Virus record (IMG/VR): IMGVR_UViG_3300031774_004146
Coordinates: 1-34,873 of that record
Direction: 5' to 3' (one strand)
Origin: a virus
Length of the DNA stretch: 34,873 bases
The notes beneath the pieces are model-generated. The model was not told the origin of the DNA. It saw only the letters and a program-made list of their open reading frames with translations, and ran no database searches. Shown in pieces: positions 1 through 25,030 of the stretch (position 1 is its first letter; each line of letters starts with the position of its first letter). The position numbers were made by a program, and so were the translations under genes.

Positions 1-237
1 CCAATTGGAACAATAAGGTCTGATACGAATTCTCAAAACGAAGAGGAGCTTTCCTGGAACATATCCCCAGATCATAGGGGTAAAGGACTAGGAGGATTAA
101 TGTTGTCTTTATTTTTCAAGAATACCCACGGCAAATTTGTGGCTAAAATAAAAAAAGAAAACATCGCCTCTATAAAAATTGCAGAAAGTAATGGTTTCGC
201 ATATAGCTCTCCAGGGGTGTATATAAAAACATTATGA
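1..237 (+). CDS. GNAT-family N-acetyltransferase, C-terminal part (5' truncated by window edge)
   Basis: The reading frame is open from base 1 and ends in TGA at 235-237, giving 78 residues. It contains the GNAT acetyl-CoA pyrophosphate loop as RGKGLGG after a beta-strand reading ELSWNISPDH, then the usual second half, KKENIASIKIAESNGF, where GNAT proteins read N-x-x-S/A-x-K-h-x-x-x-x-G-F. These proteins move acetyl from acetyl-CoA to an amine. The ATGA overlap with the next gene and the CMP-sugar cytidylyltransferase downstream suggest it acetylates an amino sugar on the way to a nonulosonic acid (a PseH-like role). That substrate is inferred only. The N-terminus is outside the window. Confidence 0.8.
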   Translation, partial: PIGTIRSDTNSQNEEELSWNISPDHRGKGLGGLMLSLFFKNTHGKFVAKIKKENIASIKIAESNGFAYSSPGVYIKTL

Positions 238-419
238 CAGATTCAGAAATTATTGATGAAATACAAAAAGTTCGCACCAAGAATAATAAAAACTGGATGG
301 ACATCTTAAGGATTGCATTCAAGTATGCCCCAGAAGAGGCTCGTTCAATATTATCGGAAATCAACAAAAGTGACGGCAAGATTAGTGGACTATTAGATCA
401 GTTATCTAAAAACGGATGA
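234..419 (+). CDS. Small conserved-looking protein (61 aa) between acetyltransferase and cytidylyltransferase
   Basis: The ATG at 234 overlaps the stop of the acetyltransferase as ATGA, so translation is probably coupled. The product is a small, soluble, charged and apparently helical protein with a WMDILRIAFKYAPEEAR core and a SEINKSDGKIS segment. There is no membrane segment, signal peptide or metal-binding cysteine. From memory, proteins of this size and pattern occur beside sialic or legionaminic acid genes in marine bacteria, which fits its position, but I cannot name a function. An antisense frame covering part of this region is a shadow: it crosses the end of the acetyltransferase gene. 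Confidence 0.7.
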   Translation: MTDSEIIDEIQKVRTKNNKNWMDILRIAFKYAPEEARSILSEINKSDGKISGLLDQLSKNG

Positions 420-457: not shown

Positions 458-2089
458 ATGAAAAACATAGAAGATGTATGTTTTATTGTTCAAGCTAGAT
501 TAAACTCAGAGCGTGTCCCTAGGAAAATGTTAAAAAGTTTTGCTAATTCTACGTTACTAGATATATGTTTATCTAAACTATCAAAGTCGTCAGTTATACC
601 AAAAGATAATATCTTTTTATCTTGTTATGAGCCCGAGATAAAGGCATGCGGAATACGGCATGGAATTAATATTTTCCCTAGATCCAAACAGTCGGCTAAT
701 GAAGAAACTAAAATGGGGGTAATTTATGAATGGCATAACAAATTAAACATAATCTTTAAAAAGGACTATAAATATGCAGTGTTAATTAGTGCATGCAATC
801 CACTATTATCCATATCTACTATAGATAATTTTGTGAAAGATTTTTTGCTGTCCAACAGAAAAGGGGCTTTTGGTGTATTTTTAAATAGAAACTATTTTTG
901 GAGCAAAAGTGGAAAACCGATTACTAACTGGAAAAAACTACCCATTATGAATACAAAGATAGTTGACCCAGTTTATGAAGCTGCACACTGTTTATATGCC
1001 ACACCTATTGGGATTATAAAAGACGGCTTCTTTATGGATGATAAAAGTCCGGCCGACCCTCATTTATTTTGCATGGAAGAGCTGGAATCTTTTGATATTG
1101 ATTACCCCTGGCAGTTTGATGTAGCGGAAATTCTTTACGAAAAATTTAAAAAAAATACTCTTAAACCTTCTAATGTTTCGATCCCAAAACCTTTAAATCC
1201 AAAATGCTACAGCAACCCCATACCTAAACCAAAACCCACATCAGAGCCTAAAGGGGAACCTGCACTAGAACCTAAACAAGAGCCCCATATCCGACCAAAG
1301 CCAAAACCCAAGGCAAGCCTAAAGATAAAAAAAATCCCAAATACAAAAATTCTATTACTAGGTCCAGTCCTTGATAAACAGATAAGTAAAAAATTTCTAG
1401 AAAGAAAACGTAAAGAAGGTTTTGCTATTTTATCCTTCTCCTCGTCTTCTTTGGTATTCTTATATGACATAGGATTTTGTCCTGATTTTCATACATTTAT
1501 TGACCCACAATCCTACTGTCATGTAATTGAACAAACCGGCTCAGAATTTTTAAGAAAAATTATATTTATAGGTCAAGATTTCATGACATATGAATCTGTT
1601 CTTAAAACTAATTCAACCTTATTCGATAAAGAGGGTGCGGGCATATCAAACTTTCTTTCTAATTCGCATTACCTTAATATTTATAAAAAAAATCCACCTA
1701 TTAAAACCTATAAACAATGCTTTGCTTTTAATCCGTTCTTAATAGATATTTTAACCGAAACTGATTTTACAGATATTAACTTCCAATCAAATTTATATAG
1801 GTTACTTAATGGTAGATTCGAGATAGAGAAATTCTCATACTACCTCTTGCCTTTGATTTTGTTTTGGTTTAATAACTTATCTCGCCTAGACATCATAGGT
1901 TTTGGTCATTTTGATAAAGACAGGTACTTTGGTGGAAACAGAAGATCTTATGATGCATACCAAAATGCATACGAACCAGTAGTTCAATTTTACAGTAGAA
2001 TTAAGTTTAATAAAAAAATAACAATATCAATTGATAAATCTAGTTTGCTTTATAGCTTAGCAAAACTAATAAACAATTCAAAAATTTAA
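458..2089 (+). CDS. Fusion: CMP-sugar (acylneuraminate-type) cytidylyltransferase + Pro/Lys linker + DUF115/Maf-like domain
   Basis: Residues 1 to about 235 look like an SpsF/NeuA-type cytidylyltransferase: the nucleotide-binding start is IVQARLNSERVPRKML (residues 10-25) and the domain ends with the DIDYPWQFDVAE pattern (about 213-224) typical of the family. Residues about 242-286 are a low-complexity Pro/Lys/Glu linker. Residues about 295-543 open with KILLLGP and then LYDIGFCPDFHTFIDP, resembling the DUF115/Maf proteins that transfer pseudaminic or legionaminic acid to flagellin. If both calls hold, one chain would activate a nonulosonic acid with CTP and transfer it. The N-terminal call is firm, the C-terminal one tentative. 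There is no signal peptide. A 38-base gap separates it from the previous gene, and there is no clear Shine-Dalgarno sequence. Confidence 0.7.
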   Translation: MKNIEDVCFIVQARLNSERVPRKMLKSFANSTLLDICLSKLSKSSVIPKDNIFLSCYEPEIKACGIRHGINIFPRSKQSANEETKMGVIYEWHNKLNIIFKKDYKYAVLISACNPLLSISTIDNFVKDFLLSNRKGAFGVFLNRNYFWSKSGKPITNWKKLPIMNTKIVDPVYEAAHCLYATPIGIIKDGFFMDDKSPADPHLFCMEELESFDIDYPWQFDVAEILYEKFKKNTLKPSNVSIPKPLNPKCYSNPIPKPKPTSEPKGEPALEPKQEPHIRPKPKPKASLKIKKIPNTKILLLGPVLDKQISKKFLERKRKEGFAILSFSSSSLVFLYDIGFCPDFHTFIDPQSYCHVIEQTGSEFLRKIIFIGQDFMTYESVLKTNSTLFDKEGAGISNFLSNSHYLNIYKKNPPIKTYKQCFAFNPFLIDILTETDFTDINFQSNLYRLLNGRFEIEKFSYYLLPLILFWFNNLSRLDIIGFGHFDKDRYFGGNRRSYDAYQNAYEPVVQFYSRIKFNKKITISIDKSSLLYSLAKLINNSKI

Positions 2090-2136: not shown

Positions 2137-2155
2137 CTCTTGTGTATTGATTATT

Positions 2156-3193
2156 ATGGATATAAAAAAAGTTATTGTAACAGGAATTACAGGCCAAGAC
2201 GGAAGTCATATGGTTGACTATTTATTAAAAAACACGGATGTAAAAGTTTACGGAACCATACGTCGTCTTAGTGTTAAAAACCACGAAAATATCCTTCACC
2301 TAAAAGAGTCTGATAGGTTTAAAATTATTAACCTGGACTTAAACGATGCCCATAGTATTAGAGATGTGGTTATTGATATACAGCCTGATTATTTTATAAA
2401 TTTTGCCGCACAATCTTTTGTCGCGGGTAGCTGGGACTTCCCAATCCAAACATGGGACACCGACTCAAACTCTGTACTTCATATACTAGAATCAATTCGT
2501 AGGTTTACTCCTCATTGCAGGTTTTATAATGCCGGTTCTTCAGAAGAGTTTGGGGATGTAATTAAAAATCCACAAAATGAAGAACACCCACTTCGCCCTC
2601 AATCCCCTTATGGCGCTGCAAAATGTGCAGCAAGACACCTAGTAAGAGTTTATCGAGAATCATACGATCTTTATGCCGTTCAGGGTTGGTTATTTAACCA
2701 CGAGGGCACACGTCGTGGGCTTGATTTTGTGACCAGAAAAATCAGTCATGGAATAGCTAGCATAAAAAAAGCACTAGAGCATGGCTCAGAAATACCTATC
2801 CTGGAGCTCGGCAACCTTGATGCTCAAAGAGACTGGAGTGATGCGGAAGACTTCATGCCTGGTGTTTGGTTAATGCTTAACCAGGCCACTCCTAAAAACT
2901 ATGTACTTGGTAGTGGAGAAATGCATACTGTTAGAGAATTTCTAAATGAAAGTTTAAAGTGTGCTGGAATTAAATACAAGTCCTCAGGATCAGAAGATAC
3001 CGAGCAGTACCACACCTTAGACGGGGAGCTTATTTTTCAAATTAGTTCTAAATTTTATCGACCTGCAGAAGTTCATGAGCTTTGCGGGGATTGCAGTTTG
3101 GCTGAAAAAGAAATCGGCTGGTCACGTAAGACTGATTTTTATGGTCTTGTTAAAAAAATGTACGAAAACGATTACGCTATTTTATCTCGGTGA
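2156..3193 (+). CDS. gmd: GDP-mannose 4,6-dehydratase
   Basis: Converts GDP-D-mannose to GDP-4-keto-6-deoxy-D-mannose, the first step of GDP-L-fucose synthesis, in the cytoplasm. It is an extended short-chain dehydrogenase: the NADP-binding loop reads TGITGQDGSH near the start, the active site carries SSEEFGD and the YGAAK catalytic Tyr/Lys pair. Family-specific blocks are NHEGTRRGLDFVTRKI and LGNLDAQRDWSDAEDF. Length (345 residues) is normal. I prefer the ATG at 2156 over a TTG at 2147, because the ATG leaves the standard short N-terminus before the Rossmann fold. It overlaps the next gene, fucose synthase, by four bases (GTGA), so the two steps are co-expressed. Confidence 0.95.
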   Translation: MDIKKVIVTGITGQDGSHMVDYLLKNTDVKVYGTIRRLSVKNHENILHLKESDRFKIINLDLNDAHSIRDVVIDIQPDYFINFAAQSFVAGSWDFPIQTWDTDSNSVLHILESIRRFTPHCRFYNAGSSEEFGDVIKNPQNEEHPLRPQSPYGAAKCAARHLVRVYRESYDLYAVQGWLFNHEGTRRGLDFVTRKISHGIASIKKALEHGSEIPILELGNLDAQRDWSDAEDFMPGVWLMLNQATPKNYVLGSGEMHTVREFLNESLKCAGIKYKSSGSEDTEQYHTLDGELIFQISSKFYRPAEVHELCGDCSLAEKEIGWSRKTDFYGLVKKMYENDYAILSR

Positions 3194-8481: not shown

Positions 8482-9777
8482 ATGAGTGATGAATTCAAAC
8501 TCCCGCCCATCAAGGTAGAAGAGGTATTATCTACTTTTTCTCAAACAACGGACTGGGGCTTAAGTCAATTAAATATTCCTAAAATATGGGAGACTACAAC
8601 TGGAAAAGGTATCACCATAGGTGTTATAGATACCGGAATGCCAAACCATAAAGATATTGGGGATAATGCTATTGAGGGTAAAAGCTTCATAGATGGAGAA
8701 ACAATCGAAGATAAGCATGGGCACCAAACACATTGTGTTGGAATCATTTCAGCTAAAAATAATTCCGAAGGAATGGTTGGGGTTGCTCCAGACTCTAAGT
8801 GTCTTTGCGTCAAAGGGTTAAGTAACTCCGGCTCAGGCAGTTCAAGCTCCGTAGCATCCGCAATTAACTATTGTATTGACTCAAAAGTTGATATCATTAG
8901 TATGTCTTTAGGTTCTTCAAGCCCAAAAGAATCTATATCTTTAGCTGTAAAAAGAGCCTACGATGCCAATATAGCAGTTATATGTGCCGCTGGTAATTCT
9001 GGGATAGCTGGCGTTAATTACCCGGCTGCATTTCAGGAGTGTATAGCTGTTGGGGCTTTTAGTAAAAGTAAAAAAATAGCATACTTCTCCTCAAGGGGCC
9101 ATCAAGTCGAAATAGCTGCGCCAGGAGTTAATATACTAAGTACATATACTAATCAATCTTATTCTAAATTAAGCGGGACATCCATGGCTTGTCCGTTTGT
9201 AGCCGGAGTCGTTGCCTTGTTAATGTCAAAGTTAAAATCAGAAGGTAAGAGTTATACCGTATCTGAAATCAGGGATTTATTAAAAACTCATGCCGACGAC
9301 GCGGGACCCGAAGGCAAGGACTGGTCTTTTGGTTATGGAATAGTTGATGCGGACGGCATGATTACTGGCACCCCTGATCCTAAAAAACCCGAGCCCAAAC
9401 CTAAACCCACACCTAAGCCCGATCCCAAACCTAAGCCCGATCCCAAACCTAAGCCCGATCCCAAACCTAAGCCCGAGCCTAAACCTAAGCCCGAGCCTAA
9501 ACCTAAGCCCACACCTACGCCCCAGCCGACTCCCAAGCCTACTCCCGACCCTGAACCCACACCTAAACCTAGGCCTGTAATAAAAGATTTCTTTCTTAAA
9601 AATTTAGCATGGATTTTTTGCTCAATAGCTTTTGTTATCATATGTGTCTTAGGTTTCTTTGTTTATTTTTCCGAAGAAGAAGAAGGAGATAGCCCCGAAT
9701 GGTTAAATGAAAACGGTGAGGTTGATTGGGATATGAAGTTTGAATTAGAGTCTAAAACAAAAAGTGGGCAGCAGTAA
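8482..9777 (+). CDS. Subtilisin-like (S8) serine protease with Pro-Lys stalk and C-terminal membrane segment
   Basis: The catalytic triad is complete: D50 (VIDTGM), H81 (GHQTHCVG) and S234 ([11 protein letters not shown]), with oxyanion N172 (AAGNSG). There is no signal peptide and no large prodomain. The short start [10 protein letters not shown] resembles the N-terminus of intracellular subtilisins. Residues about 298-365 are a rod-like Pro-Lys-Pro-x repeat, residues about 376-396 are one hydrophobic helix, and the last 35 residues are acidic. Basic residues before the helix and acidic ones after predict the protease on the cytoplasmic side, tethered to the inner membrane. Substrate unknown; a maturation or host-targeting role is possible. 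It starts 18 bases after nrdA. Confidence 0.9.
9418..9507 (+). repeat. Five tandem 18-base repeats encoding the protease stalk
   Basis: Three identical copies of an 18-base unit, beginning CCCGATCCCAAACCTAAG at 9418, 9436 and 9454, are followed by two copies of a two-base variant at 9472 and 9490. Each copy encodes six residues of the Pro-Asp/Glu-Pro-Lys-Pro-Lys pattern. Near-identical units imply recent copy-number change by slippage or recombination. The less regular Pro-Lys stretch continues to about 9576. Confidence 0.9.
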
Positions 9778-12475: not shown

Positions 12476-12643
12476 ATGGGTTTTTTAACGGAAAAAAAAG
12501 ATACTATCATGGTTAAAATTCATTCAAGGTATAAGGAAATAAATGGCAAAGCTAATTATAAAAAAGACAGCTACCCTCTTGATGAGGAAGTTATCAAGGT
12601 TAGTTGTCAAGCTACCCCCACCACCTCCACCAACTTAATATGA
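12476..12643 (+). CDS. Hypothetical small protein (55 aa)
   Basis: I do not recognise it. I take the ATG at 12476, because the upstream TTG at 12455 would only add a hydrophobic stub. The product is small and basic, with no membrane helix, and ends in a Thr-rich tail, ATPTTSTNLI. Support for coding is the ATGA overlap of its stop with the next start at 12640 and its place in an otherwise gap-free gene string. The 46 bases before it are AT-rich with no clear promoter. Confidence 0.5.
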   Translation: MGFLTEKKDTIMVKIHSRYKEINGKANYKKDSYPLDEEVIKVSCQATPTTSTNLI

Positions 12644-23269: not shown

Positions 23270-25030
23270 ATGAGTAATATAGAAATTAAAACAGGGGCGA
23301 ACCTTAGCCGATTGCTTCAATCTACAGTTAATATCCCTCAAGCCTTTACTGAGCTTGTTAAAAATTCAATTCAAAATTTTTCAACATCTTGCTCTATTGA
23401 ACTGAAGCATCCTTTTTACGGCGACGAATCCTGTCAAGCTGTGATTACCGATGATGGGCAGGGGTTTGATCATGAAAAAGATGAAAATGGAATGAATGCT
23501 TTTGATAAATATTTTGTTTTCGGTAATTCTTATGATACCACCAATGGGCACGGGTTGCGCTTGGGTCAAATGGGAATTGGTGGCAAACTTGCAAATGACA
23601 AGCTCTCTAACGAAGTAGATATTCACTGGATAATTGAAACAAAAAATATTCACGGCAAATGTTTTTTAATAGAATACAAACCATCCGGAGTTTCATTTTT
23701 GAATGAATATTCCCCATCAATGAAAGAGATTTCTCCAGAAGAATCATCAATTCAAACTCAAACTGGCACAAAGATCACAATTGTCTCAACTAAAAGACGA
23801 ATACAAATCAATAGTTGGAATATAAAAATTATTAAAAATGAGCTAAGAACTTTCTTTGGTCATTTGATACCCCAGCTAGAAAAAGAAGGCAAAAAGTTTT
23901 CATTGATCTTGAATGGTGAAAGCTTAGAATTTATATACAAACTCCCTGGATCAAATATTCCAGTTATCAGCCGCCAATTTGAATATGATTATTATGGTGA
24001 AAAGAAAAAGGCTAATATTGAATTTAGGCTGTCTTTAGTTTACAGCCGGTCTTTATTGAAAAATCACCCCCTTAAAAATATTGATATTATTTCAAAAGTT
24101 AAAATATGCCCACTTCACTTGTCAGACCAAGATTTACTTGAGTCAACGATAAGCTGGGTCGAATCTAAAAACAAAGAAGAATTTTTGGATCACGATAAAA
24201 TACATAATGTGTTTAATAAGTTAGTTGGGTTTGTTTCCTGCAATGCTCTTTCTGAAGTTCTTGACGACACGGGTATGCCCGCTAAAGATTTATCTCACCA
24301 TAGTTTAAGAAATGACCACCCAATTACTAAGCCCTTTCTTGAGAAATGTTACAGGGTATTGGTTGAATGGATTATTGAATATATTAAATTAAATCAAGAG
24401 GAAAAAATGAACATACTCGATGCTTTAGCTAACGAAGTATCAACTATGCTTGCTGAATATTTTGACGAAGAAGATTTTTCAGATCTTTGGGAAAATGACG
24501 AAGGCGAAGACGAAGAAGAAGAGGAAGATCTAACAGAAGAAGAGGAGCAAGAGGAAAAAGAAAAAGAAGAGCTTAAAGAGCTTGCTGAAATTGTCTCTAG
24601 AAGAGAATTTGATTTTCAACCGGAAGAAGAGGAAGAGCCCGAAGAAGAGGAAGAAGAGGAAGAAGAGGAAGAGCCTGAATCAGAAAACAACATCCCTCCC
24701 TTGTGGGATAGATTTAAAAATCAAAAACTTAAGAAATCCAAGAGGATTCGATATATAATTATCGATTTCGGCGAAGAAGAGAAAAACCTAATGTCAAGAG
24801 TTGATGATAATGAAAATTTCACTATATTAATCAACGAAGGTAATCCGAAGTTTTCAAGATTAAAAGAAGAGAATTCTCCTTTTTTATTAGCTCTTCACAT
24901 TTCTGAGCTTTTAATTAGAGAGATTACGGTATACAAAAACCCCCTGGCTTCCCCATGTGATTTAGATGAAGCTATCAGTAATTTTTATAACGATAAATAT
25001 TCCCAAGTGAAAGATAAAAGTGAAGTCTAA
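23270..25030 (+). CDS. GHKL-fold ATPase (HSP90/MORC/MutL-like) with long acidic region
   Basis: The N-terminal 110 residues carry the Bergerat ATP site: the N-box helix AFTELVKNSIQNF (E28, N32), the G1 loop DDGQGF (61-66) and the G2 loop GQMGIGGKLAN (99-109). Next comes a transducer-like domain to about 330, then residues about 408-473, which are almost all Glu/Asp, and a final folded segment of about 100 residues starting RIRYIIIDF. Such proteins dimerise on ATP and act as clamps or chaperones. The function in a glycan operon is unknown. It is 586 residues, far larger than its neighbours. The gene starts five bases after the previous stop. Confidence 0.8.
   Translation: MSNIEIKTGANLSRLLQSTVNIPQAFTELVKNSIQNFSTSCSIELKHPFYGDESCQAVITDDGQGFDHEKDENGMNAFDKYFVFGNSYDTTNGHGLRLGQMGIGGKLANDKLSNEVDIHWIIETKNIHGKCFLIEYKPSGVSFLNEYSPSMKEISPEESSIQTQTGTKITIVSTKRRIQINSWNIKIIKNELRTFFGHLIPQLEKEGKKFSLILNGESLEFIYKLPGSNIPVISRQFEYDYYGEKKKANIEFRLSLVYSRSLLKNHPLKNIDIISKVKICPLHLSDQDLLESTISWVESKNKEEFLDHDKIHNVFNKLVGFVSCNALSEVLDDTGMPAKDLSHHSLRNDHPITKPFLEKCYRVLVEWIIEYIKLNQEEKMNILDALANEVSTMLAEYFDEEDFSDLWENDEGEDEEEEEDLTEEEEQEEKEKEELKELAEIVSRREFDFQPEEEEEPEEEEEEEEEEEPESENNIPPLWDRFKNQKLKKSKRIRYIIIDFGEEEKNLMSRVDDNENFTILINEGNPKFSRLKEENSPFLLALHISELLIREITVYKNPLASPCDLDEAISNFYNDKYSQVKDKSEV
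24622..24672 (+). repeat. Purine-only GAA/GAG microsatellite-like tract coding poly-Glu
   Basis: A run of GAA and GAG codons, interrupted once by CCC, encodes the most acidic part of the GHKL ATPase. Shorter stretches of the same kind begin at about 24500. Replication slippage in such a tract changes length without breaking the frame, so its length probably varies between relatives. Confidence 0.75.

Follow-up and report, generated by a model that had tools for sequence, protein, structure and literature searches.

There are few transferases for Pse- and Leg-type sugars, and they are difficult to recognise. ST8SiaIII, CstII and Maf are CMP-sialate or nonulosonate transferases; Pfam family PF01973 (MptE-like/DUF115/Maf_flag10) includes MptE, and the DUF115 fold is found in pterin diphosphokinases (MptE) as well. 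According to a 2020 paper, a bacterial enzyme that moves Leg to a cell surface had not yet been reported (PMC7439481). The Maf_flag10 domain has been reported to resemble Cst-II (PMC11339370), and the family GT29 is regarded as related to GT42 (PMC5811610).

The stretch of DNA analysed here, which we call the window, comes from IMG/VR as a virus record of 34.9 kb; it carries genes for ribonucleotide reductase as well as a long glycosyltransferase/sulfotransferase array. The product of one gene near its left end is probably a marine-phage CMP-nonulosonate synthetase and transferase in a single chain, as judged from sequence comparisons and structural models. Its N-terminal domain shares the domain type, the conserved motifs and the genomic link to NeuB with the NeuA/PseF/SpsF-type cytidylyltransferases (PF02348; 1QWJ), but represents a distant viral subfamily and carries a second domain. 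The predicted fold of this C-terminal domain may resemble that of the central Maf_flag10 domain of the Maf flagellin transferases (PF01973; 5MU5), with which it has the CMP-nonulosonate context in common. However, in contrast to the three-domain Maf proteins, it comprises about 250 aa equivalent to the central domain only, has a cytidylyltransferase in front, falls below the Pfam cut-off and occurs in a window without flagellin. The component parts are of known kinds. In the literature searched, largely papers available without subscription, we found no description of the fusion or of a phage DUF115-like family tied to CMP-nonulosonate synthesis, and no direct precedent for phage nonulosonate pathways or natural CMP-synthetase/sialyltransferase fusions.

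Two domains share one reading frame

The left end of the window contains the following features, in the order GNAT (cut), 61-aa ORF, cytidylyltransferase with C-terminal domain, Gmd:

1–237, + strand: GNAT acetyltransferase, C-terminal part, cut by the contig end (Acetyltransf_3, 29.9 bits > 25.4)
234–419, + strand: small conserved 61-aa ORF, no Pfam match, homologues in viral nonulosonate clusters
458–2089, + strand: fusion ORF, ATG start, 543 aa
458–1147, + strand: predicted CMP-nonulosonate synthetase (cytidylyltransferase) domain, aa 1–230 (CTP_transf_3, alignment A1, 1QWJ, tree)
1148–1333, + strand: Pro/Lys-rich linker, aa 231–292 (composition; no internal in-frame start before aa 332)
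1334–2086, + strand: DUF115/Maf_flag10-like domain, probable nonulosonate transferase domain, aa 293–543 (PF01973, L033 homologue, hhalign to D9, AlphaFold2 and Foldseek)
2147–3193, + strand: GDP-mannose 4,6-dehydratase, Gmd (PF16363, 1.5e-100), with the same downstream position in L033

The ORF at 458–2089 is a single reading frame with no interruption. The initial annotation had described it as a cytidylyltransferase joined through a Pro-Lys linker to a Maf/DUF115-like domain, and this two-domain reading is borne out by a CTP_transf_3 domain and a PF01973-like domain on either side of a 62-aa linker with 15 Pro and 15 Lys. No in-frame ATG, GTG or TTG occurs among the fusion codons from the linker to aa 332, so the C-terminal domain, with its first strand, would be made solely as part of the fusion. 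Among the window's other ORFs, only the subtilase at 8482–9777 has a comparable Pro/Lys stretch, a long linker accompanied by a hydrophobic, probably membrane-spanning C-terminal stretch. An origin of the fusion linker by copying from the subtilase is unsupported, as the matches between them are short and of low complexity.

The N-terminal domain belongs to a NeuB-linked viral family

By sequence, the N-terminal domain is a member of the cytidylyltransferase family PF02348: CTP_transf_3 matches aa 9–132 (E = 3.2e-12; 47.2 bits against a curated cut-off of 22.6), and the CMP-sugar synthetase domain extends over aa 9–230. Its motifs include QARLNSERVPRKM and FDIDYPWQF. The conserved QARxxSxRxxxKM and the acidic FDID are presumably the nucleotide-binding and metal-binding motifs, as in CMP-sialate synthetases, and R14, S17, R19, K23, D213 and D215 are invariant in the family alignment A1 (8 sequences). 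The domain scores below the equivalog cut-offs for PseF (TIGR03584; 31.6 bits against 205.7, E = 1.2e-7) and KdsB, and its family profile matches CMP-Neu5Ac synthetase 1QWJ in the PDB (E = 7.8e-12).

Searching with aa 1–236 retrieved eight viral contigs at 39–55% identity, and an alignment of the relatives used as query reached 39 viral and 5 genome loci. A NeuB-type synthase lies within 6 kb of the cytidylyltransferase in 31 of 33 distinct viral loci; the remaining two (L010 and L038) are cut by a contig end near the cytidylyltransferase. All full-length viral relatives are unfused, stand-alone proteins of 224–244 aa. In a maximum-likelihood tree, the window domain falls together with L002, L009–L013, L033, L065, L068 and L071 in a group of 11 (support 99/98), most of whose members sit in dehydratase–aminotransferase–NeuB clusters.

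The C-terminal domain shows a weak likeness to Maf in sequence and predicted fold

PF01973 matches aa 302–386 with E-values of 6e-4 for the full protein and 1.8e-4 for the domain alone, at 20.0–21.8 bits against a gathering score of 34.6. The protein is therefore not a Maf by membership, and is a Maf-like transferase by likeness only. Its C-terminal domain has a GP near the start, followed by PDFHTFIDP. A stand-alone homologue occurs in the viral contig L033 (26% identity, E = 4e-15, about 213 residues aligned), in one gene run with PseB-like, DegT, NeuB, GNAT and cytidylyltransferase genes; repeated scans with the C-terminal domain gave this contig alone. A profile built from the window and L033 sequences reached proteins in L037 (1.5e-5), L045 (3e-4) and, weakly, L009 (0.05).

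Scans with sequences related to the C-terminal domain gathered a family of ten aligned stand-alone proteins, here called D9. Aligned by hhalign, the window/L033 profile matches D9 with 96.4% probability and an E-value of 1.2e-9, over the first ~80 residues only. Five of the ten members match PF01973 (best 4.5e-6). All D9 contigs contain NeuB genes and all except one contain PseB-like genes; in five of them (L060, L063, L065, L068 and L070) the D9 and cytidylyltransferase genes overlap. The D9 gene of L071 (5989–6630) is broken across several frames, by sequencing error or because the gene has decayed.

The AlphaFold2 model of the window domain, based on five sequences, has a mean pLDDT of 57 (middle below 50) and a pTM of 0.65. 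In a Foldseek search of the PDB, this low-confidence model matched Maf 5MU5 with a probability of 0.99 over 84 columns (rmsd 2.8), the next best of the matches listed reaching at most 0.38. The D9 model, from ten sequences, has a pLDDT of 79.8 and a pTM of 0.83; among the PDB matches listed, only ST8SiaIII, CstII and Maf had probabilities of at least 0.96, with Maf at 0.96. Against viral structure predictions, its best matches were phage MptE-like/DUF115 proteins. Because the E-values for both models exceed 1e-3 and TM-scores are about 0.2–0.4, the predicted structures support a common fold class rather than close kinship. The proposed resemblance to Maf/DUF115 proteins is upheld to this extent, by a sub-cut-off PF01973 match and a favourable, if weakly modelled, structural comparison.

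The likeness to GT42 CstII and GT29 ST8SiaIII lies in the Foldseek matches of D9. Profiles of the C-terminal domain have no GT42 match, and its assignment as a GT42 enzyme was dropped; by contrast, a neighbouring protein family of the same viruses, D6 (alignment A3: L006 8644–9720 and 14 other proteins), does match CstII among PDB profiles (4e-7). D9 is distinct from this CstII-like family, though both occur in the same clusters. In many viral contigs, D6 has NeuB-type and cytidylyltransferase genes as neighbours. L060 and L063 have two complete-looking nonulosonate routes next to each other, and each route has a synthase, a cytidylyltransferase and a transferase-like gene to itself: one runs PseB-like, aminotransferase, NeuB, formyltransferase, cytidylyltransferase and D9, the other NeuB, D6 and cytidylyltransferase.

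Gene order suggests a truncated nonulosonate cluster

The closest counterpart of the window, L033 (IMGVR_UViG_3300031519_007812), has both domains, the same gene types and Gmd after the cytidylyltransferase, but encodes the domains in two genes about 3.5 kb apart that flank the dehydratase–aminotransferase–NeuB–GNAT genes. Its order is RNR, glycosyltransferase-like, C-terminal domain homologue, PseB-like, DegT, NeuB, GNAT, cytidylyltransferase and Gmd. L071 reads PseB-like, aminotransferase, NeuB, GNAT fused to the 61-aa protein, D9 and cytidylyltransferase. In L009 and L012 the 61-aa ORF stands immediately 5′ of the cytidylyltransferase, with the same nonulosonate pathway upstream. As in the window, GNAT precedes the cytidylyltransferase module in L033 and L071. 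A GNAT gene just upstream of the fusion, as first noted, is indeed there as a partial gene, but the 61-aa ORF intervenes.

The window's 34.9 kb contain no NeuB gene, and on the left the contig ends within GNAT. From the gene order of L033, L071, L009 and L012, the contig end most likely falls just after the nonulosonate-forming genes. The NeuB-type synthase of this virus must be encoded left of the window or by the host. The expectation of NeuB/Pse-type genes on this side agrees with their position in these relatives, which have the same gene types. Since Gmd directly follows in both the window and L033, the nonulosonate module and the fucose/sulfate genes may form one locus, rather than the module being the second, separate glycosylation route suggested in the initial annotation.

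The 61-aa protein (window 234–419; L009 7118–7303) is conserved and accompanies nonulosonate clusters of viruses. Its homologues adjoin or lie near the cytidylyltransferase in L009–L012, L065 and L068, and it is fused to GNAT in L071 (5372–5986) and to a methyltransferase in L069 (6970–7839).

Proposed function and alternative explanations

As the fusion joins activation and transferase-like parts that relatives keep as separate neighbouring genes, a single protein probably carries out both steps. From CTP and a nonulosonic acid, the N-terminal domain would form CMP-nonulosonate. Judging from the linked genes, the acid would be a Pse/Leg-type sugar rather than sialic acid in the strict sense, and its dehydratase, aminotransferase, GNAT and NeuB genes would most likely lie beyond the left end of the contig. 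The flexible Pro/Lys linker would tether the C-terminal domain and keep both domains close, so that the CMP-sugar might be handed over between them. The C-terminal domain, with a predicted Rossmann-like fold of the class common to GT29, GT42 and Maf CMP-sialate transferases, would then move the sugar from CMP-nonulosonate to an acceptor, which could be a virion or host protein, or a glycan built by the downstream glycosyltransferases. The initial annotation had suggested such a two-step enzyme, activating and attaching a sialic-type acid; its architecture holds, both domain families cluster with NeuB and the predicted fold may be like that of Maf, while the activities stand as predictions.

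The case for a synthetase/transferase rests on the single frame, on the homologies of the two domains, on the occurrence of both families in clusters with NeuB and on the fold resemblance. Against it count the weak window model, the D9 link over ~80 residues, the sub-cut-off PF01973 match, a window without NeuB and the DUF115 fold shared by MptE. The last point leads to a different reading, in which an ordinary CMP-sugar synthetase carries another DUF115-fold activity (pterin diphosphokinase-like) or a binding or regulatory domain. We consider this improbable: although MptE is a PF01973 member, the match falls short of the cut-off and the middle of the domain was modelled without confidence, the stand-alone relatives are all in nonulosonate clusters, the D9 model prefers CMP-sialate transferases, and no pterin genes were seen. 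It is more improbable still, to the point of being scarcely credible, that assembly or sequencing artificially joined two genes which the virus keeps apart. Such an artefact would fit the lack of a second fused copy in all collections searched. Scans of viral contigs, phages and plasmids with the full protein and the C-terminal domain gave no useful match, and weak plasmid matches covered the N-terminal domain alone; fused copies were likewise absent from 292 Cyanobacteriota genomes, where matches were separate frames of 225–236 aa, and from 398 Pseudomonadota genomes, in a search that says little because it had no positive control. However, a composition-biased linker of 62 aa replaces the short overlap junction of the relatives, no internal start precedes the C-terminal domain, and loss of a stop codon would not produce such a Pro/Lys linker.

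A narrower form of the bifunctional synthetase/transferase, which would modify specifically proteins (virion or host) in the manner of Maf on flagellin, is tenable but on balance doubtful. By probability, the window domain matches best to Maf, which transfers to protein, and D9 is separate from the GT42/CstII-like D6 of the same clusters, which could serve a glycan acceptor. On the other hand, the N- and C-terminal domains of Maf are absent, neither flagellin nor a known acceptor is encoded in the window, the matches of D9 also include CstII and ST8SiaIII, whose acceptors are glycans, and about 20 downstream glycosyltransferase/sulfotransferase genes suggest a glycan. Only tentatively do we suggest that the fusion represents an undescribed nonulosonate transferase family, comprising the C-terminal domain and D9, by which phages decorate their own virion proteins with a Pse/Leg-type sugar.

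In a phage, a transferase tied to the maker of its CMP-sugar names its donor class directly, and the fusion points to the whole stand-alone D9 family, which is open to expression and assay. With a virion protein as acceptor, marine phages would sialylate themselves, whereas transfer to a glycan would mean that they remodel host surfaces or their own coats.

Other features of the window

Positions 12604–34772 hold a dense array of GT90, NodZ-like, GT25, GT2, GT61 and galactosyltransferase-like genes, together with a UDP-galactopyranose mutase and at least five sulfotransferases. Within this region, 23270–25030 encodes a 586-aa protein with a HATPase_c_3 (GHKL) domain, a strongly acidic tract and no PHROG match.
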